From Halalkalicoccus tibetensis (GTDB lineage Archaea; Halobacteriota; Halobacteria; Halobacteriales; Halalkalicoccaceae), in NCBI RefSeq assembly GCF_037996645.1, contig NZ_JBBMXV010000004.1:211684-275683 (forward strand): a stretch of 64,000 nucleotides of DNA. The letters run 5' to 3'. Position numbers and translations under genes: made by a program. The notes beneath the pieces were generated by a model. The model ran no database searches and was not told where the DNA came from. It saw nothing but the letters and a program-made list of their open reading frames with translations. Within the stretch, counting starts at the first letter, position 1; each line of letters opens with the position of its first letter. Shown piece after piece: positions 1,197 through 56,852 of this stretch.

Positions 1197-3143
1197 CTAT
1201 TCGAGGAAGTCCGGCTCGGTGCGCTTCTGGCCGACCTCGCTGCCGAGGTGGTCGCGGAACTCGACCGGCGAGACGTCGTCGCGCTCGCGCTCGAAGCGAT
1301 CCCGGACCGAGACCGTGCCGGCCTCCTCCTCGTTGCCCCCGACGATCAGCATGTATGGAACGCGGTCGTCGTGCGCTGTTTGAATCTTCTTGCCGATGGT
1401 CCACGATCGGTCCTCGATCCCCACGCGGAACTCCGAGAGTTCGTCCTTGACCTCCTCGGCGTACGCGACGTTGTCGTCGCTGATCGGCAGGATCCGCACC
1501 TGCTCGGGCGCGAGCCACGTCGGGAAGTTCCCGTTGAAGTGCTCGATCATCACGCCCATGAACCGCTCGAAGCTTCCTAACAGAGCCCGGTGGACCATCA
1601 CGGGGCGGTGTTCCTCGTTGTCCTCGCCCGTGTAGGTGAGATCGAGGCGCTCGGGGATGTTGAAGTCGAGCTGGACGGTGCCGATCGTCCACTCCCGTCC
1701 GAGGGTGTCCCGGGCGTCGAGGCCGATCTTCGGGCCGTAGAAGGCCGCCTCGCCCTCCTCGACGTCGTAGTCGAGGCCCTCGTTCTCGAGGGACTCCCGC
1801 AGGGCCTCGGTGGCCTCCGACCAGACCTCGTCGCTTCCCACTGCCGTCTCGCCCTTCGTCTCGAGCTTGTAGATGACCTCGAGGTCGAACTCGGTGTAGA
1901 TCTCCTCGATAACGCGCAGCGTCTCGGTGATCTCGCGCTCGATCTGGTCGGGGCGGATGAAGGCGTGGCCGTCGTCCTGGGTCATGCCCCGGACCCTGAG
2001 CAGCCCCGAGAGCTCGCCCGACTGCTCGTTGCGATAGACGTTGCCGAACTCCGAGAACCGCACGGGCAGATCCCGATAGGAGCGGATCTGCTGGTCGAAG
2101 ATGTAGGCGTGGTTCGCACAGTTCATCGGCTTCAGGCCGTACTCGGTGCCCTCGCCCTCCGACGTCCCGGGGCTCTCCTGCTCCCAGGCGAACATCTCGC
2201 CCTGCTCGGTGAACGTCTCGTAGTGGCCCGTCGGTTTCCAGAGCTCGGCCTTGTTGAGCTCGGGCGTCCTGACTTCTTCGTAGCCCAGCTCGTCGTTCTG
2301 CTCGCGGATGTACTCCTCCAGTTCCCGGCGGATCGTCATCCCGTTGGGGTGGTAGTGGGGACAGCCCGGCGCGTGGTCGGGCACCGAGAAGAGGTCCATC
2401 TCGCGGCCGATCTTGCGGTGGTCGCGCTCCTTGGCCTGCTCGCGGCGCTCGAGGAACTCCTCGAGTTCCGACTCGCTGGGGAACGCCGTGCCGTACACAC
2501 GAGTCAGCATCTCGTTGTCCTCGGTGCCGCGCCAGTAGGCCCCCGAGATCTCGAGCAGGGCGAACCCGCCGATCTCGCCGGTCGACTCGACGTGCGGGCC
2601 CCGACAGAGGTCGCGGAACTCCGCCTGCTCGTAGAAGCTCACGGGGTCCTCGCCGACGACCTCCTCCTCCAGGATATCGCGCTTGAACGGGTTGTCCTCG
2701 TAGTACTCGAAGGCCTCCTCGCGACTCATCTCGACGCGCTCGATCGGGACGTCGGCCTCGATGATCTCCTCGGCCTCGGCACTGATCTCTTCGAGGTCGG
2801 CCTCGTCGAGATCGACGCCGGTAACGTCGTAGTAGAAGCCGTCGTCGGTCCACGGACCGATGGTGAGCTTCGCGTCGGGATGGAGGCGCTGGAGGGCCTG
2901 GGCGAAGACGTGGGCTGCCGTGTGGCGCAGCGCGTCGACGTACTCGTCGCTGCCGTCGGTGACGATCTCGATCTCGACGTCCCCCTCGATCGGGTGTTCC
3001 TTGGCGACGAACTCGCCGTCGACGACGCCGGCGACGGTGTCGCGCCCGAGACCGGGGCCGATCTCGTAGGCGACGTCCTCGACCGTCGAACCGGCCTCGA
3101 CGGCGAGCTCGGAGCCGTCGGGGAGGGTTACGGTGACGCTCAT
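1197..3143 (-). CDS. thrS: Threonine--tRNA ligase
   Basis: Charges tRNA-Thr with threonine in the cytoplasm. The protein is 648 residues, the usual length for a full bacterial-type ThrRS. Domains in order are an N-terminal TGS domain (about 1-62), then a bacterial-type editing domain with H74xxxH78 and C180/H184 (CRGPHV), then the class II core with the motif 2 area ([11 protein letters not shown]), and an anticodon-binding domain near the C-terminus. A reading frame extends 44 codons upstream of 3143. I chose the ATG at 3143 because TGS domains begin exactly with this [10 protein letters not shown]-type strand and the upstream residues are arginine/glycine-rich junk. Having the bacterial-type editing domain rather than the archaeal D-aminoacyl-tRNA deacylase-like domain is known for haloarchaea. 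Confidence 0.95.
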
Positions 3144-3278
3144 ACCTACCCTGAACCGGGGCGGCGTAAATAAGCGTTCATCCGACCCGTAGACGGCACC
3201 GCTGTCCCCTCCTCCGGCCCCACGGCGTCCGTTCGCGGCGATCCGTGACGCAAGCGAGGCCATGGGCGACGACACGGA

Positions 3279-3286
3279 TTATATAC
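3279..3286 (+). promoter_or_regulatory. Probable TATA box for the acidic lipoprotein gene
   Basis: The octamer TTATATAC lies about 45 bases upstream of the ATG at 3329 in otherwise GC-rich DNA. A transcript starting about 25 bases downstream would carry a short 5' leader of about 20 bases. This is a sequence-only prediction. Confidence 0.5.
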
Positions 3287-3328
3287 GCACACCGAAAGAC
3301 TAATTCCATATCTATTAGAGTAATAATT

Positions 3329-4324
3329 ATGGTACGATCGAAGCGCCATGCGGTACTGACCGTTCTCGTCTGTCTGACTGTTCTTCTGGCCGGTTGTTCG
3401 GGCTGGGGAACCGACGGGCCGGTGGACGAGGAGGCCGAGTCGAACGGGAGCGATGACCTCGAGGAAGCCGACGCCGAGGCCGACGACGACGGAACGGCCG
3501 ACGGATCGGACGATGTCGGAGCCGACGGGGCTGACGACGCCGACACCGACGACGGCGAACTACCGGAGTCCGGAACCGATGACGAGGATAGCGACGTGAC
3601 GGACGACGAGACGGACGCCCCCGAGGGCGATTCCGACGGGGAGACCGGTGCTGACGACGGCGATGATGCCAGCGTCGACGACGGTGACGCGGAGGAGGGC
3701 GACGAGGCTGATGAGGGCGAGGGTGATGGAACAGACGGCGATGAGGCTGACGACGCCGATGGAGGCGACGCCGACGAGAACGACGGCTCCACGCTCACCG
3801 TCGAGACCGCCGACGTCGTCACCGACGAGCCGGTCGACGCCGACGTGATCTCGCTCGCGCAGGACGGCGAGACGGTCGACGAGGCGAGCGGCGAATCGGC
3901 GACCTTCGAGGGCCTCGCGGACGGCGAGTACGACCTCGAGCTCCACGACAGCTTCGGCGACTGGGCCTACGGCGACACGATCACGATCGACGGCGAGGAC
4001 GCGACGCACGTCGCCGAGATCGACCAAGGCCACACCTACTGGCCCGGCGTCGAAGTGACGATCGTCGACGGCGACGGCGAGCCCGTCGAGGGCGAGATGG
4101 TGACAATCGACGGCGAGGAGTTCGTGACCGGGCCTGACGGCACCGTCGAGGAGGAGATCGAGTCGAGCTACACCGACGAACGGGAGTTCGTCGTCGAGTA
4201 CGGCGAGCAAAGCGAGACCGTCGAGACCGATTGGGAGACCTGGGACGGGGAACCCGAGACCGTGACGTTCGAGACCGAGGACGGTGACGCGGACGGCGAC
4301 GCCGCATTGGCGATCGCGGCGTAG
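3329..4324 (+). CDS. Acidic secreted lipoprotein with a C-terminal beta-sandwich-like region
   Basis: Probably an extracellular lipid-anchored protein of unknown job. The start at 3329 (331 residues) gives a classic short signal: basic MVRSKRH, hydrophobic core, then lipobox LLAGC with the lipidated cysteine at residue 23. An earlier ATG at 3245 would bury this signal, so I rejected it. Residues ~27-150 are a low-complexity Asp/Glu/Gly linker. Residues ~150-325 look like two Ig/carboxypeptidase-regulatory-like beta modules (TFEGLADGEYDLELHD, then VEVTIVDGDGEPVEGEMVTI). The architecture of lipobox, acidic spacer and beta module is common for haloarchaeal surface proteins. It is divergent from thrS. 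No enzymatic motif is visible. Confidence 0.8.
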   Translation: MVRSKRHAVLTVLVCLTVLLAGCSGWGTDGPVDEEAESNGSDDLEEADAEADDDGTADGSDDVGADGADDADTDDGELPESGTDDEDSDVTDDETDAPEGDSDGETGADDGDDASVDDGDAEEGDEADEGEGDGTDGDEADDADGGDADENDGSTLTVETADVVTDEPVDADVISLAQDGETVDEASGESATFEGLADGEYDLELHDSFGDWAYGDTITIDGEDATHVAEIDQGHTYWPGVEVTIVDGDGEPVEGEMVTIDGEEFVTGPDGTVEEEIESSYTDEREFVVEYGEQSETVETDWETWDGEPETVTFETEDGDADGDAALAIAA

Positions 4325-48337: not shown

Positions 48338-49384
48338 TTAGAGCCCGAGATACGCCGCGTTGGGCAGGAGGCCGAGCAGATACAGCACGCCGATCAGCAG
48401 CGTCATGATCGCGATCGCCATCGCCGGCGGGTCGACGTGGGTCCCCGAGTGGGAGTAAAAGACCCGCTGGGTGACCTCGCCGAACAGGCCGCTGAGACAC
48501 CCGAAGAGGGCGGCGACGATCAGGACGACGGGATCGCTGCCCACCGCGGAAGCCGCGATCATCGCGCCCGACGAGCCCAGCAGCGTTATGTGGTGGGTGA
48601 CGGGGATCTTCTCGACGCCGAGGTTCAAGAAGAGCAGGCTCGCCGCGGAGATCCCATAGCCGAGGAACATGCTCCCGGTCTCCAGCCAGGCCCATCCACC
48701 GAGGACGCCGCCGACGAGTCCGATCGCCGTCACGCCCGACCACGTGTACTGGTGGGGAAGCCAGGGCTCGGTCGACGGCCGCTCGCTGCCCGCACGGGTC
48801 TCGCCGCGCTCGAACGGCGACATGTCCAGATATCCGTTCCCCGCTGGCGTCCCGATCAACGGGTAGTCGAAGACGACCCGCGCGACGAGCGCCGTAAGCG
48901 CGACCGACATCGCGATGTTGTCGAGCGGGAGCCCGATCCCCTCGCCGATCTGGGTGACGAGCATCCCGAGGGCGCCAAACAGCGCGCCGACCAGCAGGAT
49001 GTCGGGCTTGGTGCCGAAGGCGTAGGTGATCTCCTTCCCGAAGTGAAACCCGCCAGGGGTCCCCATCTCGGGATAGCGCTTGCCGGCGTAGGCCGTGGCC
49101 GCGACCCCGCCCGCGAAGGCGATATGTGGGCCGACGACCGGTCCGAAGCCGATCGCGCCGGTCACGTCGAGCGCGATTCCCTCGACGCCGGCGTCGGCGA
49201 GCTCCGCCTGCAGCGCCCCGAGCCCCTCGCCCAGGAGGACGACGAACCCGGTGAAGACGAAGGAGGGAAGCGCCCCGAGCGCCGCGCCGAACGCGCCGCC
49301 CGCGAGCGCCGCGATGAGCAACGCGGCGAACGCCTCGTACTCCATCCCGAGGACGGGGACCTGGAGGACGGTGGCTTCGATCAT
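48338..49384 (-). CDS. Polytopic membrane protein cotranscribed with glpK
   Basis: A 348-residue protein with about nine membrane helices. It starts one base after the glpK stop, so the two form an operon. Glycine-rich motifs (AGGVAATAYAGKRYPEMGTP, YAFGTKPDILLVGALFGALG) and a conserved THHITLLGSSGAMIA segment are visible. It is not MIP/aquaporin-like (no NPA boxes). Its fixed position after glycerol kinase suggests a glycerol uptake role or another glycerol-linked transport step. That is inference; no transport motif confirms it. Confidence 0.78.
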   Translation of the reverse strand: MIEATVLQVPVLGMEYEAFAALLIAALAGGAFGAALGALPSFVFTGFVVLLGEGLGALQAELADAGVEGIALDVTGAIGFGPVVGPHIAFAGGVAATAYAGKRYPEMGTPGGFHFGKEITYAFGTKPDILLVGALFGALGMLVTQIGEGIGLPLDNIAMSVALTALVARVVFDYPLIGTPAGNGYLDMSPFERGETRAGSERPSTEPWLPHQYTWSGVTAIGLVGGVLGGWAWLETGSMFLGYGISAASLLFLNLGVEKIPVTHHITLLGSSGAMIAASAVGSDPVVLIVAALFGCLSGLFGEVTQRVFYSHSGTHVDPPAMAIAIMTLLIGVLYLLGLLPNAAYLGL

Positions 49385-49385
49385 C

Positions 49386-50921
49386 CTACTCGTCCCTCGC
49401 CCAGCCCCGCGAGCGCTCGACGGCCTCGGACCAGCGCTCGTAAGTGCGATCGGCGTCCTCCGGGTCCATCTCCGATTCGAACTCCCGGTCGATCTGCCAG
49501 TTATCGCGGAGCTCGTCGACGGTCTCCCAGTAGCCCACGGCGAGACCCGCGGCGTACGCGGAGCCGAGCGCGGTGGTCTCGTCGACCTCGGGCCGGACGA
49601 TCTCCGAGCCGATGATGTCGGCCTGGAGCTGACAGAGGAAGTCGTTCTTCACCGCGCCGCCGTCCACGCGCAGCGAGCCCATCTCGATGCCCGAATCGGC
49701 CTCCATCGCCTCGGCGACGTCACGGGTCTGATACGCGATCGCCTCGAGGGTCGCCCGGACGATGTGTTCCTTCTTGGTGCCGCGGGTCATCCCGACGATC
49801 GTTCCCCTCGCCCTGCCGTCCCAGTGGGGCGCGCCGAGCCCGGTGAGCGCGGGGACGAAGTAGACCCCGTCGGTGGAGTCGACCCGGCTCGCGAGCTCGG
49901 CGGTCTGGGCCGCGCTCTTGATCAGCCCGATGTCCTCGAGGAACTCGACGGCCGCGCCGGTGATGAAGATCGACCCCTCAAGCGCGTAGTTGATCGGCTC
50001 CCCCGAGCGCTGGAACGCGACGGTCGTCAGCAGGCCGTGTTCGCTTTCGACTGCGTCCTCGCCGGTGTTCATCAGGAAGAAGCTACCCGTGCCGTAGGTG
50101 TTCTTCGCGTCGCCGGCGTCGAAGCAGGTCTGGCCGAACAGCGCGGCCTGCTGGTCGCCGAGCGCGCCCGCGACGGGCACCTCAGCCCCCAGAAAGCCGT
50201 CGGGGTCGGTATGGCCGTAGTAGTCGTCGTCCGAGGAGGGGCGTACCTCGGGGAGACACGCCTCGGGAACGCCGAACTCCTCCAGGAGCTCGTCGTCCCA
50301 GTCGGCGTCGTGGATGTCGTACAGCATCGTCCGCGAGGCGTTGGTCACGTCCGTGATATGGTTGCCCGTGAGCTTGTGGATCAGCCACGTGTCGATCGTC
50401 CCGAACAGCACCTCGCCCTCCTCGGCGCGGTCGCGCACGCTCTGTTGCTTTGCGGGTTCGAGCTTCATCGGGTCGGCGTTCTCGAGGATCCACTCGGCCT
50501 TCGTCGCCGAGAAGTAGGCGTCGGCCTCGAGCCCGGTCTTCTCGCGGATGGTCCCGGCCATCCCCGCGTCCTGGAGCTCCTCTACCCTGTCGGTCGTCCG
50601 GCGGTCCTGCCAGACCAGCGCCTCGTGGACCGGCGTGCCCGAGTCGCGGTCCCAGAGCACCGTCGTCTCGCGCTGGTTGGTGACGCCGATCGCCGCCAGC
50701 TGGTCGGCGTCGATCCCCGCCTCCGAGAGCGCGTCCGTCATCACCGACTTGGTGTTCTCCCAGATCTCGACGGGGTCGTGTTCGACCCAGCCGGGCTGGG
50801 GGTAGATCTGTTCGTGTTTCTCGTACGCGTTGGCGACGACCTGTCCCGCGTGGTCGAACACCATAAAGCGCGTTCCGGTCGTCCCCTGGTCGATCGCACC
50901 GACGAATTGTTCGCTTGTCAT
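49386..50921 (-). CDS. glpK: Glycerol kinase
   Basis: Phosphorylates glycerol with ATP to sn-glycerol 3-phosphate, the first step of glycerol catabolism. The protein is 511 residues, full length. FGGY-family signatures: FVGAIDQGTTGTRFMVFDHA near 5-25, GTGSFFLMNTGEDAV near 260, and VDGGAVKNDFLCQLQADIIG near 400-420. An upstream frame of 14 residues was rejected; MTSEQFVGAID at 50921 is standard. It is divergently arranged relative to glpABC, with the Orc-like gene between them. The 102-base region upstream (50922-51023) holds its promoter, with a TTTATC-type AT-rich element. Confidence 0.95.
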   Translation of the reverse strand: MTSEQFVGAIDQGTTGTRFMVFDHAGQVVANAYEKHEQIYPQPGWVEHDPVEIWENTKSVMTDALSEAGIDADQLAAIGVTNQRETTVLWDRDSGTPVHEALVWQDRRTTDRVEELQDAGMAGTIREKTGLEADAYFSATKAEWILENADPMKLEPAKQQSVRDRAEEGEVLFGTIDTWLIHKLTGNHITDVTNASRTMLYDIHDADWDDELLEEFGVPEACLPEVRPSSDDDYYGHTDPDGFLGAEVPVAGALGDQQAALFGQTCFDAGDAKNTYGTGSFFLMNTGEDAVESEHGLLTTVAFQRSGEPINYALEGSIFITGAAVEFLEDIGLIKSAAQTAELASRVDSTDGVYFVPALTGLGAPHWDGRARGTIVGMTRGTKKEHIVRATLEAIAYQTRDVAEAMEADSGIEMGSLRVDGGAVKNDFLCQLQADIIGSEIVRPEVDETTALGSAYAAGLAVGYWETVDELRDNWQIDREFESEMDPEDADRTYERWSEAVERSRGWARDE

Positions 50922-51023
50922 GGTTAGTGTCGTTTCCGGGGCGCCCCGGTCCGACGGCACCATTCTTTATCGAAGAGTGCCGTACTACCAATAACCAATA
51001 CTGACATTCATGATAAACCTTTC

Positions 51024-52208
51024 CTACCGCTCGCGGGCAGATCCGTGGGTCGCGTCGAACACCTGTCGGAAGACGAGCGTCGGGAACCGGGGCTCGACGC
51101 GGCTCGGCGGGCGCCCCAGCCCGTCGGTTCGTTCCGCGCGCACCCGGTCGAGGACGCCGGTTTCGGCCAGTTCGTAGAGGAACCGCTTGACCGTCGCCGT
51201 CGAGAGCTCGAGCGAGCCCTCGCTTGCGACGGTCTCCGCGGTCTCGCCGATCGACTGCCCGCTCGTATCGAGGTCGAGCAGCCGCCTGAGGACGCGCTGT
51301 CGGTTCTCGGGTAGCGCCAGCACGCACCCGATCGCCACGCCGGACCGTGGGACGGCCTCCATGCCGGCGTCGACCGCCCCCGACTCGATCGTTCGCTTGC
51401 CCGCCTCGTCCGCCCGCACCGCCGCGCCGAACAGCGCCGCGAGCGCGTCGTGGACGTCGCCGTTGGCCCACGTCGCGATCCGCCGGAGCTCCTCATGTGG
51501 GATCGCCTGATGTGCGAGCCCCCGCGAGGCCCGGCTCGTCAGGATGTCCACGAGCGCGTAGCGCTGATAGCTCGGGAGGTGGACGGTCGAGTCGATCGGC
51601 GTCCCGTACTCCCCGGGCGGCTGGCGGCCGATCGCGAGCCACGCGATCGAGTCGGGAACGCGACCGAGGAACGCCTCGACGGTGTCGACGGGGACGGTTT
51701 CGGAGCGCCCGAGGTGATCGACCGCCACGACCGCCGTCCGATCCGACCCGCCGAACGCTCCCTCCAACCGCTCGACGAGGTGGTCGTCGCCGACGCCCTG
51801 TTTCGGGATCCGCTCGTCGAGCAGGGCGTCGAGGATCGCGTGCCGGAGGCCGAACTCGCTTCGCGTCCCGCGCGCGTCGACGTAGGCGAACTCGGCCATG
51901 TCGCCGCCCTCCACGCGCGTGCTCGTGTGGATGCTCGTGCGGCTCTCGTCGCTCACTCGCTCGAGTTCCGAGAACAGCGCCGTGACGAGCGCGGACTTGC
52001 CCGACCCCTTCGGCCCCCAGACGTAGGTGTTCGACGGGAGCTCGCCACCGAGTGCGGGTTCGAGGCCGTCGAGCAGCTGCTCCAGGGCCGAGCCCCGGCC
52101 GTCCGGGTCCCGGACGTGGGCGGCCGGGCTGAGCGCGTCGTAGCTCCTGATCAACTGCGGACCGCCGTCGGATCGTCGCCGCCTCGCGACGCGTTCTTCG
52201 ATGTTCAT
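51024..52208 (-). CDS. Orc1/Cdc6-like AAA+ ATPase, diverged
   Basis: A 394-residue AAA+ protein with a C-terminal winged helix, related to Orc1/Cdc6 proteins. Walker A is WGPKGSGKSALVTALF (GPKGSGKS at 65-72). The Walker B-like strand is AVVAVDHLG, with Asp164 followed by His165 where origin-binding Orc proteins have Glu. This predicts weak or absent ATP hydrolysis. The sensor-2 region and winged helix (IGETAETVASEGSLELST, VKRFLYELAETGVLDR) are present. It sits between the divergent glpK and glpA genes rather than at an obvious origin. It may be a regulator or a degenerate initiator; function unknown. Confidence 0.82.
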   Translation of the reverse strand: MNIEERVARRRRSDGGPQLIRSYDALSPAAHVRDPDGRGSALEQLLDGLEPALGGELPSNTYVWGPKGSGKSALVTALFSELERVSDESRTSIHTSTRVEGGDMAEFAYVDARGTRSEFGLRHAILDALLDERIPKQGVGDDHLVERLEGAFGGSDRTAVVAVDHLGRSETVPVDTVEAFLGRVPDSIAWLAIGRQPPGEYGTPIDSTVHLPSYQRYALVDILTSRASRGLAHQAIPHEELRRIATWANGDVHDALAALFGAAVRADEAGKRTIESGAVDAGMEAVPRSGVAIGCVLALPENRQRVLRRLLDLDTSGQSIGETAETVASEGSLELSTATVKRFLYELAETGVLDRVRAERTDGLGRPPSRVEPRFPTLVFRQVFDATHGSARER

Positions 52209-52436
52209 CGTATCAGGGAGGGTGGGCGGACACCGATGGACCGTGTGTCCGACGGGTGCCGTCGTCCCGGGATCCCCGGACCGCGCTCGCGACCCCGATC
52301 TCGGGGGACGTTCGACCGACGGGAAACCGGTTCGGGACGGTCATTACTAATCTAACAATCAGTCATGTGGGAAATAGTTTACTCCTGGGTCGCGTCGAGG
52401 GGTAAAGTAAAGTAGACGGGAGCCAACGGGAAGACG
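52209..52436. promoter_or_regulatory. glpA upstream region between the Orc-like gene and glpABC
   Basis: 228 bases with promoters for both divergent genes. The last ~90 bases contain AT-rich elements (ATTACTAATC near 52344-52353 and GAAATAGTTTACTCC near 52370-52384), the latter about 60 bases before the glpA ATG. I cannot identify a specific operator. Confidence 0.4.
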
Positions 52437-54302
52437 ATGACAGACAGGGTCGACGTCCTCGTCGTCGGCGGCGGCTCGACGGGCTGTGGCATCGTCCGCG
52501 ACCTGGCGATGCGCGGGCTCTCGGTGGCGCTCGTCGAGCAGGGCAACCTCACCCACGGTACGACGGGGCGGATGCACGGGCTGCTCCACAGCGGCGGCCG
52601 GTACGCCGTCTCCGACCAGGCGAGCGCGCGCGAGTGTATCGAGGAGAACAGGGTGCTGCGCGAGATCGCGGGCCACTGCGTCGAGATGACCGGCGGGATG
52701 TTCGTCCAACTGGAGGACGACCCCGACGAGTACTTCGAGCAGAAACTCGAGGGGTGTCGGGAGTGTGACATCCCCGCGGAGGTCCTCTCGGCCGAGGAGG
52801 CCCGCGAACGCGAGCCGTATCTCACCCGCGAGGTCAAACGCGCGATCGCGGTGCCCGACGGCGCGGTCGATCCGTTCCGCCTCTGCGTGGCCAACGCGGC
52901 CGACGCGATCGAACACGGTGCGCGCGTCGAGACCCACGCGAAGGTGACCGACGTCCTCGTGGAGGGCGGGGAAGGCGAGGCACGAAGTGCCTCGGAGATG
53001 CCGAGCGGGCGAGGCCCGCGAGGCCGTGTCGTCGGCGTGGAGGTCGAACACGAGTCGGGGCCCGGAAAGCGAGACCACGCCGAGCCCGGCACCGTCGAGG
53101 AGATCCGGGCCGACCACGTCGTGAACGCGACGGGCGCGTGGGCCGGGCGCGTCGGAGAGATGGCCGGCGTCGACGTCGAGGTCCGGCCCTCGAAGGGCGT
53201 GATGGTGATCATGAACGCCCGGCAGGTCGATACGGTGATCAACCGCTGTCGGAAGAAGGGCGACGCCGACATCATCGTCCCCCACGAGACGACCGCGATC
53301 CTGGGGACCACGGACGTCGAGGTCGACGACCCCGAGGACTATCCCGAGGAGCGCTGGGAGGTCGACATGATGATCGAGGAGCTCTCGGGACTCGTGCCGA
53401 TCCTCGAGGACGCCCGGACCATCCGCTCCTTTTGGGGCGTCCGGCCGCTGTACGAACCCCCTGGAACCGGAACGACCGACCCCACCGACATCACGCGAGA
53501 CTTCTTCCTGCTCGACCACGAGGACCGCGATTCCCTGCCGGGGATGACTAGCATCGTCGGCGGGAAGTTCACCACCTACCGGCTGATGGCCGAGAAGATC
53601 TCTGACCACGTCTGCGAGAAGCTCGACGTCACCGCGGAGTGTCGTACCGCCGACGAGCCGCTCCCCGGCAGCGAGGACTTCTCGGTGCTTCGCGACTACA
53701 TGGACGAGTTCGGGCTCCGCTCCCCGATCGCCCGCCGCAGCGTCCAGCGGCTCGGTTCGCGGGCCGACGAGGTGCTGAAGACCGACGAACCCAACCCCGT
53801 GATCTGTGACTGCGAGGCGGTCACGCGCGCGGAGATCCAGGACGCCATCGAGGGCGCGGGAAGCGACCTCAACGCCGTGCGGATCAGGACCCGCGCCTCG
53901 ATGGGCAACTGTCAGGGCGGCTTCTGCTGTCACCGGATGGCCGGCGAGCTCCACCCCGAGTACGACGAGGCGACCGTCAGCGAAGCGTGGGACGAGCTCG
54001 TACAGGAGCGCTGGAAGGGCGAGCGCCACGCGCTGTGGGGCGAGGGGCTCTCGCAGGCCGCCTTGAACTACCAGCTCCACGGCACGACGATGAGCCTCGA
54101 CCGCGAGCCCGCCGTAACGGAGTTCGACGCGTTCGATTCGGGCGCCGAGGCGGCGACGGACGGCGATGAGCGAACCCACGGTGAGCGCGAGCGAGACGAG
54201 CGCGATCCACATCGGACCGCGAGACGGTCCGAGGATGGTTCGCGATCCTCGTCGGATCCTCGATCCGACGGCGGGCGACGGGGAGGCGACCATGGCGATT
54301 GA
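52437..54302 (+). CDS. glpA: Anaerobic-type glycerol-3-phosphate dehydrogenase subunit A
   Basis: Catalytic FAD subunit that oxidises glycerol 3-phosphate to dihydroxyacetone phosphate and passes electrons via GlpBC to the quinone pool. The protein is 621 residues. The FAD Rossmann motif is [14 protein letters not shown] (GGGSTG at 11-16). A C-terminal BFD-like [2Fe-2S] domain has C457, C459, C492 and C497. Two oddities: an in-frame palindromic insertion encodes about 15 residues around 181-195 ([17 protein letters not shown]), and the last ~55 residues are an Arg/Asp/Ser-rich tail that reads through hairpins into glpB. First gene of glpABC. Confidence 0.93.
52977..53019. repeat. Palindromic in-frame insertion inside glpA
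   Basis: Two adjacent perfect inverted repeats within the coding sequence: GAGGCAC/GTGCCTC (52977-52983/52987-52993) and GCGGGC/GCCCGC (53005-53010/53014-53019). The local protein sequence is low-complexity and lies between two segments that would normally be contiguous in GlpA. Looks like a small palindromic element that inserted without breaking the frame. Confidence 0.6.
54213..54267. repeat. Cluster of three hairpins at the glpA-glpB junction
   Basis: CGGACCG/CGGTCCG (54213-54219/54225-54231), CGAGGAT/ATCCTCG (54230-54236/54245-54251) and CGGATC/GATCCG (54253-54258/54262-54267). They are in the extended glpA tail just before the glpB start and share style with the elements in glpA and between the YeeE halves. 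Confidence 0.6.
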
Positions 54303-55569
54303 GGACGACGTACTCGTGATCGGCGGCGGGCTCGCGGGCGCGACCGCGGCCATCGTCGCCGCGCGCGGCGGGGCCCGAACCCGGCTTGTCACGCACAAGG
54401 AGAACACGCTGCGCAACGCCAGCGGGCTGGTCGACGTGCTGGGCTATCACGGGAGCGACGAGCCGATCGTCGAGCCCTTCGAGGCGATCCCCGACCTGCC
54501 CGACGAGCACCCCTATCGGACGGTGGGCGTCGACGCGGTCCGCGAGTCGCTCGCGCTGTTCGACGAACTCACCGAGGGGCTCTACGAGGGCGGGCACACC
54601 GACGTGAACGCGCTCTCGCCGACCTACGGCGGGCGGATCAAACCCACGAGCCGGTATCCGACGAGTGCGGCGGCGGGGCTGGCGAGCCGAGCCGAGGACA
54701 CGCTGCTGGTAGGCTTCGAGGTCGTCACGGGCTTCGACGCGCCGCTCGCGGCCGAGCGTCTCGACGCCTCGGTGCCGTTCGACGTCCGGGGGGTCACGGT
54801 CCGGTTCCCCGGCGAGTTCCGGGCCGACGCCCGGGTCACCCGGCTGGCGAAGGCGCTCGACGCCGACGAGCTGCTCGATCGCGAGAACCGAACCGGCACC
54901 CGCGAGGCGCTCGCGGATCTGGTCGCCGAGCACCTCGGCGATGCGGAACGCGTGGGCTTTCCCGCGCTGCTGGGCGACCACGACCCCGGCGCGGTACGCG
55001 AAACCCTCGAGGCCGAACTCGGCGTGCCGGTCTTCGAGGTGCCGATGGGGCCGCCGAGCCTGCCGGGGATGCGCCTCGAGGACCGCCTCGAGGAGGCCCT
55101 CGACGCGGAGGGCGTGCGCGTCGAGTCGGGCAACCCGGCCGTCGATTACACCGAGGACGAGGGCCGGATCACCTCGGTCTCGATCGACCGGGGCCGACGC
55201 GAGACCCCCTATCACGCGGATCAGGTCGTGCTGGCGACGGGCGGGCTCGTGGGCAAGGGGATCGACTCCGATCGCGAGGGGATCAGCGAGCCGGTCTTCG
55301 ACTGTCACGTCCCCCAGCCCGAGGAGCGCTACGAGTGGTTTCATGACCACGTCTTCGACGACCAGCCGTTCGCCCGCTTCGGGATGGACACCGATGATAG
55401 CCTCCGGCCGCTCGATTCCGAGGGCGAGCCAGAGTTCTCGAACCTCCGGGCGGCGGGCGCGGTGCTGGGCGGCTACGATCTGGCGCGCGAGAAATCGGGA
55501 AGCGGCGTCTCGCTGGCGACCGGACTGGTCGCCGGCCGAAACGCGAGCGAGGATCTAACAACACAATGA
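54292..55569 (+). CDS. glpB: Glycerol-3-phosphate dehydrogenase subunit B
   Basis: Second flavoprotein subunit of the membrane-associated GlpABC complex. The protein is 425 residues from the ATG at 54292, inside the end of glpA. The FAD motif is [20 protein letters not shown] (GGGLAG at 11-16). The frame is open 42 codons further upstream through the hairpin cluster, but that part is low-complexity and the ATG at 54292 gives a typical start. Its stop overlaps the glpC start by four bases. Confidence 0.93.
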
Positions 55570-56852
55570 GTGACGCAGAGAGTTCCGACGAGTTCGAACC
55601 GGTAGAAGTGTTCCCCGAGGCCGAGTCCGGAGGGATGGACCTCCGATCGGGGGCCGACGACTGTTACAAATGTTCGACCTGCGACAGCGAGTGTCCGGTC
55701 GCGGCCGTCGACGACGACTTCCCCGGCCCGAAGTTCCAGGGGCCGGAACAGTGGCGCCTGAAGCGCAAGAGCGATCAGGACATCGACGACTCGGTGATGA
55801 ACTGCTCGAACTGCATGCGCTGTGACTCGGCCTGTCCCTCGGACGTGCCGCTCAGCCAGATGCACAACACCGCGCGGGGGACCTTCGTCGAGAACCAGAT
55901 GGCGAAGCTCTCCCGGGAGTACATCCGCAATCGGATCCTCTCGAACTACGGCACGCTCGCGTGGGTCGGCTCGAAGGTCCCCCGCCTGACGAACTTCCTG
56001 ATGAGTAATTCGGTAGTTCAGGAGGTCAACGAGAAGGTGATGGGAATCACCGCCGAGCGGGAGTTCCCCGAGTTCGCCGAACAGACCTTCCGGGAGTGGT
56101 GGTCCGAAAGGGACGGAGCCAACGTGGAGAGCGACGAGAAGCGCGTCGCGTACTTCCACGGCTGCTACTCGAACTACAACACCCCCGAGGTCGGCAAGGC
56201 GATGGTGCGGGTCTTCGAGTCCTTCGGCTACGAGGTCATGGTGCCGCCCCAGAAGTGCTCGGGCACCCCGATGTTCGCCAACGGGATGTTGCCCGACGCG
56301 CGGCGCGCCGCGGAAACCAACGTCGCCGAGCTCTCGGCGGCCATCGAGGACGGCGCCGACGTCATCGCCTCGTGTACCTCCTGTTCGCTCTCGCTTCGCC
56401 AGGAGTACCCCGAGCTGTTCGATCTCGATGGCATCGAGGACGTCTCCGCGCACACCTACGAGGCGCTGGAATACCTCCGGATCCACGAGGACCTCTCGGG
56501 GGCACTGGAGGAAAGCGAGGTCGATTCCGAGCGCTTCGCCTATCACGCGCCGTGTCACGCGCGCAACCAGGGGCTCGCGGGACAGGCGATCGAGCTGCTC
56601 GATCGGGTCGAGGGTGCGGAGGCCGAGGACGTCGGCGACTCGTGTTCGGGCATTTCGGGCACCTACGGCTGGAAGGAGGAGAAGTACGACACCTCGATGA
56701 AGATCGGCGCGGAGATGTTCCACCACATGGAGGACGCCGAACCCGACGCGGGGATGACCGAGTGTCCGACCTGCGCGATGCAGATGGAACACGGGACGGG
56801 CTACGAGGTCCGACATCCCCTTCAGGTGATGGAGGACGCGCTGGTCGATTAA
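55566..56852 (+). CDS. glpC: Glycerol-3-phosphate dehydrogenase subunit C
   Basis: Iron-sulfur subunit that connects GlpAB to the membrane quinone pool. The protein is 428 residues. Two [4Fe-4S] clusters are bound by C33/C36/C39/C43 (CYKCSTCDSECP) and C80/C83/C86/C90 (CSNCMRCDSACP). Two cysteine-rich CCG-type domains follow (YFHGCYSNYN...KCSGTPMF...CTSCSLSL, and HAPCHARNQG...CSGISG...CPTCAMQM). In both, the second Cys of the CCG core is Ser, as is often seen in GlpC. It abuts a convergent small gene with a four-base overlap. Confidence 0.93.
   Translation: MSDAESSDEFEPVEVFPEAESGGMDLRSGADDCYKCSTCDSECPVAAVDDDFPGPKFQGPEQWRLKRKSDQDIDDSVMNCSNCMRCDSACPSDVPLSQMHNTARGTFVENQMAKLSREYIRNRILSNYGTLAWVGSKVPRLTNFLMSNSVVQEVNEKVMGITAEREFPEFAEQTFREWWSERDGANVESDEKRVAYFHGCYSNYNTPEVGKAMVRVFESFGYEVMVPPQKCSGTPMFANGMLPDARRAAETNVAELSAAIEDGADVIASCTSCSLSLRQEYPELFDLDGIEDVSAHTYEALEYLRIHEDLSGALEESEVDSERFAYHAPCHARNQGLAGQAIELLDRVEGAEAEDVGDSCSGISGTYGWKEEKYDTSMKIGAEMFHHMEDAEPDAGMTECPTCAMQMEHGTGYEVRHPLQVMEDALVD

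Follow-up and report, generated by a model that had tools for sequence, protein, structure and literature searches.

The question raised by this locus is why a gene related to archaeal Orc1/Cdc6 replication initiators should sit among the genes for glycerol catabolism. The stretch of Halalkalicoccus tibetensis DNA that was analysed (64,000 nucleotides, hereafter the window) was known from a preliminary description, which reported an open reading frame at 51024-52208 between glpK and glpABC without naming a strand, called its product a degenerate Orc1/Cdc6-like ATPase and suggested a repurposed regulator of the flanking operons. The frame is present on the minus strand, encoding 394 aa from an ATG at 52208, and the plus-strand reading is interrupted by a stop. 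Its location is likewise as described: Pfam domains identified glpK (glycerol kinase) at 49386-50963 on the minus strand, with a likely start MTSEQF at 50921, and, on the plus strand, glpA (glycerol-3-phosphate dehydrogenase subunit A) at 52437-54302, glpB at 54166-55569, whose true start is probably further downstream, and glpC (Fe-S subunit) at 55566-56852. The gene is codirectional with glpK and divergent from glpABC. A membrane protein gene at 48338-49384 on the minus strand, for which 'glpX' is our working label, gave no Pfam match at E 0.001 and probably encodes a homologue of Haloquadratum HQ1732A; it adjoins glpK in most named loci. A bacterial promoter and terminator scan gave no matches.

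The product of 51024-52208 consists of an Orc1/Cdc6-related AAA+ domain and a winged helix and is a predicted glycerol-operon regulator. As judged by profile and fold comparison, its Orc1/Cdc6 kinship is real and distant. The NCBIfam subfamily model TIGR02928 matched it at E 7.1e-19 and 67.9 bits, under the cut-off of 181.3; Pfam AAA_16 was above its cut-off and Cdc6_lid just below (26.8 vs 27). The AlphaFold model (pLDDT 87.4, pTM 0.86) has the AAA+ domain, the lid and a C-terminal winged helix, and among solved structures S. solfataricus Cdc6-1 and A. pernix Orc1 come closest in both sequence and fold. The top structural match was 2v1u_A (A. pernix Orc1, DNA-bound; VIA-align Z 23.8, rmsd 6.4, 346 aligned), with 2qby_A also matching (Z 23.2, rmsd 6.8, 335 aligned), at identities of 20-22% to the 2v1u and 2qby proteins. 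In a protein search of its own genome the next-best match had E 4.3e-5, against 1e-258 for self, and a tree of 14 family rows and nine own-genome paralogues split the two groups by a long branch with 100/100 support. Of 293 genomes from the order, 197 contain an orthologue at E<=1e-20, with about six candidates scored per genome. In a wider sample of 246 genomes from the phylum, a match at E<=1e-25 was obtained for 26, all of them, own genome included, from this same order. The closest named relative among the best 80 of 219 loci is that of Halalkalicoccus paucihalophilus, at 81% identity. Haloferax volcanii HVO_1537 is listed as orc15, a replication initiator with no origin named, in the available text of PMC2841640, and we use orc15-type for the family. 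By position alone HVO_1537 probably belongs to it, because its tag lies near glpK, four locus tags before hvo_1541 in the portion of PMC12607858 consulted, and Haloferax-group loci carry the gene beside glpA.

Translation bears out an intact Walker A, GPKGSGKS at residues 65-72 (51993-52016, minus strand), and a Walker B, AVVAVDH (VVAVDH), at residues 159-165 (51714-51734, minus strand) that ends in Asp164-His165. Conservation of this pair in the clade had been set as a test in the preliminary description; Asp-Glu was not found in the orthologues, and Asp-His is present in 139 of 139 aligned members (131 distinct), a fixation that, from the alignment, is far beyond chance. Decay of a single copy was thereby ruled out, and the term degenerate stands for the Asp-His itself, which is real, but not as local decay, the pair being a fixed family trait. 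The nine own-genome Orc paralogues that could be aligned have Asp-Glu in eight cases and Asp-Asp in one. As a separate observation, another Orc paralogue of the own genome (L005:895-2019) carries Asp-Asp (ALDDVN) at Walker B on a long branch and is possibly a second non-canonical Orc.

Other catalytic positions have changed as well. The sensor-2 position (His253) holds His in 138 of 139 members in place of Arg, the paralogues being GDARRAL-like here; the sensor-1 position holds Arg in 125, Gln in nine, His in three and Asn or Glu in one each of the 139; and the DPRV-like arginine-finger stretch of the own-genome paralogues is missing from the family in an alignment with them. We take these labels from general AAA+ knowledge and the alignment rather than from a nucleotide-bound structure. 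Walker A Lys71 is kept in 132 of 139 members and is Thr in seven (GPxGSGTS; L132-L137 and L204), all from family f8, presumably Natrialbaceae, and all with the glp linkage kept; ATP binding in these seven is doubtful. Other f8 members, L023-L025 for example, retain the Lys. The winged helix is strongly conserved, with T339 and R342 in 139 of 139 members and R366 in 138, and its conserved segment at residues 333-375 (LELSTATVKRFLYELAETG ... GRPPSRVEPRF; 51084-51212, minus strand) is the predicted DNA reader. Together, these features suggest a protein that binds DNA and whose ATPase domain survives as a scaffold, predicted to be catalytically dead.

Linkage to the glycerol genes was counted in 80 named loci, the best-matching of 219. 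A glp gene lies within 400 nt of the orc15-type gene in 62 of these and at 401-1500 nt in 14 more, giving 76 of 80 within 1.5 kb; one further locus has a glp gene at 2.25 kb and three have none in the available stretch. Among the latter, L076 and L081 are second copies whose other copy lies beside glpA, and L068, from a metagenome contig, has little sequence downstream. Such second copies occur in some Haloferax-group genomes (L128/L081, L130/L076), with no glp gene in the stretch and a winged helix closer to the common type. The gene orders number at least six: glpABC divergent from glpK-membrane-orc15; glpABC divergent from orc15-glpK-membrane, as in the window; glpK divergent from glpABC-orc15; orc15 divergent from glpABC-glpK; orc15-glpABC divergent from glpK; and orc15 convergent to glpC. 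Every one of the 197 gene-positive genomes has a glpK match (TIGR01311, E<=1e-3), vs 54 of 96 gene-negative ones, counts that are uncorrected for relatedness and incompleteness. Because 54 genomes have glpK without the orc15-type gene, this gene is not essential to the glycerol pathway. When the ORFs near glp were listed at eight gene-negative loci as candidate replacement regulators, two (L150, L154) appeared IclR-like by eye.

An inverted repeat, TTTACY-N17-RGTAAA, is frequent in the glpA and glpK promoters of gene-positive loci. The window carries it as the predicted operator TTTACT-N17-GGTAAA at 52378-52406 (plus strand), which ends 30 nt before the glpA ATG and is the only exact copy in the 3.6-Mb genome. 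When up to two mismatches were allowed, the genome gave 81 matches vs 100 for the reversed control, and weak matches are uninformative because they are fewer than those of the control. Upstream of glpK, a degenerate predicted operator, GTTATT-N18-GATAAA, was read from the sequence at 50966-50995 (minus strand); its weight-matrix score of 6.5 is under the threshold of 8, and a TATA-like TTTATC at 51012-51017 starts 22 nt ahead of the operator.

Across 35 representatives, the hexamer AGTAAA/TTTACT occurred in 53 of 71 glpA and glpK upstream regions, with seven expected from shuffles, and half-sites were paired at a spacer of 17, sometimes 18. Over spacers of 5-30, TTTACN/NGTAAA pairs in 185 gene-positive regions were found only at 17-18 and, through a repeated GTAAAGTAAA, at 22-23, and none was found at any of these spacers in 62 gene-negative upstream regions; relaxing the half-site pattern adds single or double strays at spacers 5, 21 and 26. 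After de-duplication, the dyad was present in 33 of 85 glpA and 26 of 99 glpK regions of gene-positive loci, and the operator was found in none of 23 glpA and none of 30 glpK gene-negative promoters (53 distinct promoters from 30 genomes). This gene-negative set derives from 43 of the 54 glpK-positive genomes, which were re-searched, 11 incomplete or weak ones being left out, and promoters were taken from 30. Upstream regions were 300 nt long, and one site could be counted from both genes of a divergent pair; counted once over 1.37 Mb from glp loci, 46 of 47 TTTACN-N17/18-NGTAAA sites lay upstream of glpA (25, at 30-37 nt) or glpK (21, at 20-65 nt). Operator presence tracks the gene, also within genera having members with and without it (g18, g27, g42).

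A weight matrix trained without the cluster under test, at a threshold of 8 that we chose ourselves (6 to 10 give similar counts), recovered 49 of 85 glpA and 65 of 100 glpK gene-positive regions, with 71 of 185 falling below it. In the controls it recovered two of 62 gene-negative regions, both from genome G129, which is represented twice and whose glp promoters show no clear half-sites by eye, and two of 185 shuffled regions. At least one region exceeded the threshold in 24 of 26 clusters, and two of 26 had none. Genome-wide, an exact match occurred in 97 of 197 gene-positive vs seven of 96 gene-negative genomes, in some cases away from glp (genus g47), and total exact matches vs the reversed control were 120 vs 21 in gene-positive and seven vs 24 in gene-negative genomes; the genomes are related, and Fisher values for such comparisons overstate significance. 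A sequence-blind dyad scan (any perfectly paired 6-mers, up to 160 nt upstream) showed no peak at spacer 17, scoring 0.09 of 185 positives and 0.09 of 23 negatives. Symmetry alone is therefore not significant, and the evidence is the TTTAC/GTAAA pair at fixed spacing.

The half-site varies between clades together with the winged helix. In a Halorubrum-type group, chosen by locus and title, TTCACN-N17-NGTGAA (half-site TTCAC/GTGAA) is present in 20 of 20 glpK promoters, and it was found in none of 80 other gene-positive and none of 13 gene-negative glpK promoters; the variant was noticed by eye first and counted after. The Halorubrum-type protein differs in the winged helix at positions 338, 341, 343 and 372, and at many other places. 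By eye, Halorubrum glpA and some family-f8 glpA promoters have at most one good half-site. Where the gene adjoins glpA in the Haloferax group (L125, L127, L129 and L131), the winged helix has diverged (IRRVLYELSD...GRPATRPIPNF), the relaxed dyad was found in none of eight promoters and two of the eight exceeded the matrix threshold. The exchange of half-site is seen in one clade; over the two clades, the changes of promoter and winged helix fit direct recognition. The glpK leaders of the same four loci share, by eye, an ACTCTC-N4/5-GAGAGT inverted repeat, perhaps a diverged operator.

Linkage in at least six gene orders, co-occurrence with glpK and an operator that tracks the gene support the earlier suggestion of a repurposed regulator of the flanking operons. 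From these comparisons the orc15-type protein is very likely a dedicated regulator of the glycerol operons, of either sign, on a pseudo-ATPase Orc1/Cdc6 scaffold. Counting against this are the Haloferax-group glp promoters, most of which lack the repeat, the regions and clusters below the matrix threshold, the Halorubrum and family-f8 glpA promoters with at most one good half-site, and the degenerate glpK site of the window. Its C-terminal winged helix would read TTTACY-N17-RGTAAA in the glpA and glpK promoters, perhaps assisted by a basic N-terminal helix and a remnant initiator-specific motif, and the protein would probably dimerise, each subunit taking one half-site. It is much less probable that the operator belongs to TrmB, GlpR or another factor and that the Orc-like protein has a different glycerol role. 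The TACT/AGTA core is shared with TrmB-type sites, which in Halobacterium read TACT-N7-8-GAGTA according to the sections of PMC4158304 available, but the spacing here is 17-18 rather than 7-8, and a TrmB site was set aside on this basis, TTTACN/NGTAAA never being found at 7-8. This explanation, which we consider unlikely, is also at odds with an operator that follows the gene even inside one genus, with the joint change of half-site and recognition helix in the Halorubrum group and divergence of both in the Haloferax group, and with the conserved winged helix that the orc15-type protein itself possesses.

Still less probable, to the point of being hardly credible, is that the protein is a replication initiator or a marker of a dormant origin whose glp linkage is incidental. 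Its Orc1/Cdc6 kinship agrees with such a role, as does the prediction, in the available text of PMC3528665, that most haloarchaeal orc genes lie next to origins, and GC skew in 4-kb windows shows a weak sign change, from -0.026 to +0.046, across the intergenic region between the diverging genes. However, skew shifts of at least this size occur elsewhere in the window (-0.080 at 32-36 kb) and one is expected at diverging transcription, the glp linkage persists across the different gene orders, and the catalytic residues are lost. The preliminary description had named origin repeats with a bidirectional origin at this site as evidence against a regulator and had proposed a search of 52209-52436; neither there nor more widely in 50900-52500 was an origin-like repeat array seen among the listed repeats, which cover 20 of 23 direct and 25 of 53 inverted ones, and an ORB-like pattern was also absent near the gene. 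Repeats, skew and the ORB-like pattern thus gave no origin signature, a result that is not strong alone, given the scope of the repeat listing, the ORB-like pattern used and the weak sign change in skew.

If the protein is a dedicated glp regulator, its sign is rather more likely than not to be negative, and both operator positions suit a repressor because the glpK site lies downstream of the TATA-like word and the glpA site over GGTAAAGTAAAG. The glpK operator would begin about 22 nt downstream of the TATA-like start, across the expected transcription start, and the right half of the glpA operator, about 35 nt before the ATG, would cover the TATA-like GGTAAAGTAAAG. Seen from glpK, 25 sites could be compared, 10 of them glpA-side sites: a TATA-like word lay within 45 nt in 13, at 22 nt in 11 of these, and none was present in 12. 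The same protein and operator could instead activate glp, for example by recruiting TFB/TBP to glpA, a possibility to which we give a minor share of our confidence. One glpA half-site does lie upstream of the TATA-like stretch, and the relative Orc1-2 activates repair genes in the consulted portion of PMC9738581. Against activation, the TATA-like word at glpK precedes the operator, by 22 nt in 11 of the 13 sites that have one nearby, and the TrmB review, in its available sections, associates repression with motifs lying downstream of promoters (PMC4158304).

As a repressor, the orc15-type protein would block TBP/TFB or RNA polymerase until glycerol, glycerol-3-phosphate or the nucleotide state releases it. 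The AAA+ domain, with its fold kept and its catalytic residues lost, would serve as a scaffold and possibly as a ligand pocket. As a guess, the fixed Walker B His could hold the protein in a binding-competent state, so that release would have to come from a ligand or nucleotide exchange. More tentatively still, an initiator ATPase may have become a one-component metabolite sensor, whose dead pocket binds a glycerol-3-phosphate-like metabolite or nothing and whose operator coevolved with it (TTTAC in most lineages, TTCAC in Halorubrum). If true, many haloarchaea would control glycerol use chiefly through a metabolite-sensing Orc15 that has long passed for one of the annotated 'replication initiators'.

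Orc1-derived regulators are themselves known. Saccharolobus islandicus Orc1-2, in the text of PMC9738581 available, is a non-initiator that uses the Orc1/Cdc6 scaffold as a promoter-binding transcription regulator, as is predicted here; its Walker B E154A mutant binds promoters as well or better, and a Walker A mutant binds poorly. Unlike the orc15 family, Orc1-2 has conserved Walker A and B motifs, requires ATP hydrolysis for switch-off and is a global DNA-damage regulator (PMC9738581, same text), whereas the orc15 family has lost catalytic residues and has the adjacent catabolic operon as its predicted target. The archaeal Orc1/Cdc6 initiators (PDB 2v1u, 2qby, 1fnn) share its fold and domain order, but in the orc15 family the Walker B Glu, sensor 1, sensor 2 and arginine finger are replaced or missing and no origin signature was seen. 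Haloferax volcanii orc15 (HVO_1537) would differ from the common type, in that the DNA-reading domain and promoters of the Haloferax group look diverged. TrmB of Halobacterium and GlpR of Haloferax are likewise haloarchaeal regulators responding to glycerol, and the TrmB site shares the TACT/AGTA core (PMC4158304, available sections), but both belong to other protein families and their motifs are spaced differently; in the consulted part of PMC12853182, GlpR is presented as a repressor of glucose and fructose genes.

For Halalkalicoccus jeotgali, Wu et al. give four chromosomal Cdc6 genes, two of them origin-associated, and the word 'glycerol' is absent from the main text in the form available (PMC3528665); a Haloquadratum transcriptome paper mentions, in its accessible portion, the membrane gene beside glpK and not the orc15 gene (PMC5496347). 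No report of the orc15 family as a glycerol regulator, or of HVO_1537 in glycerol control, was found in the open-licence literature, and the new element would be this family as a predicted glycerol-operon regulator. The analysis provides a gene and an exact predicted operator that can be tested in strains amenable to genetics. A further implication is that, among the many 'orc' genes of haloarchaea, some may not encode initiators, which would affect origin counts. The family also offers a predicted natural case of an AAA+ initiator turning into a pseudoenzyme regulator, in which nucleotide chemistry would have been lost to different extents in different lineages.

Eight exact operator matches elsewhere in the genomes (L195-L202) were examined. 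In genus g47, three sites (L196:3118, L197:3183 and L198:2969) lie 192-194 nt before genes with alike N-termini, away from glp, and may mark an extra target; the L196 downstream protein, the only one of the three scanned, is a molybdopterin oxidoreductase by Pfam. The site at L195:3157 lies 56 nt before a second GlpA-like FAD/[2Fe-2S] gene, a possible regulon member, and in L199 a haloarchaeal NiFe-hydrogenase small-subunit gene (2927-4144) follows the site at a distance of 30 nt.
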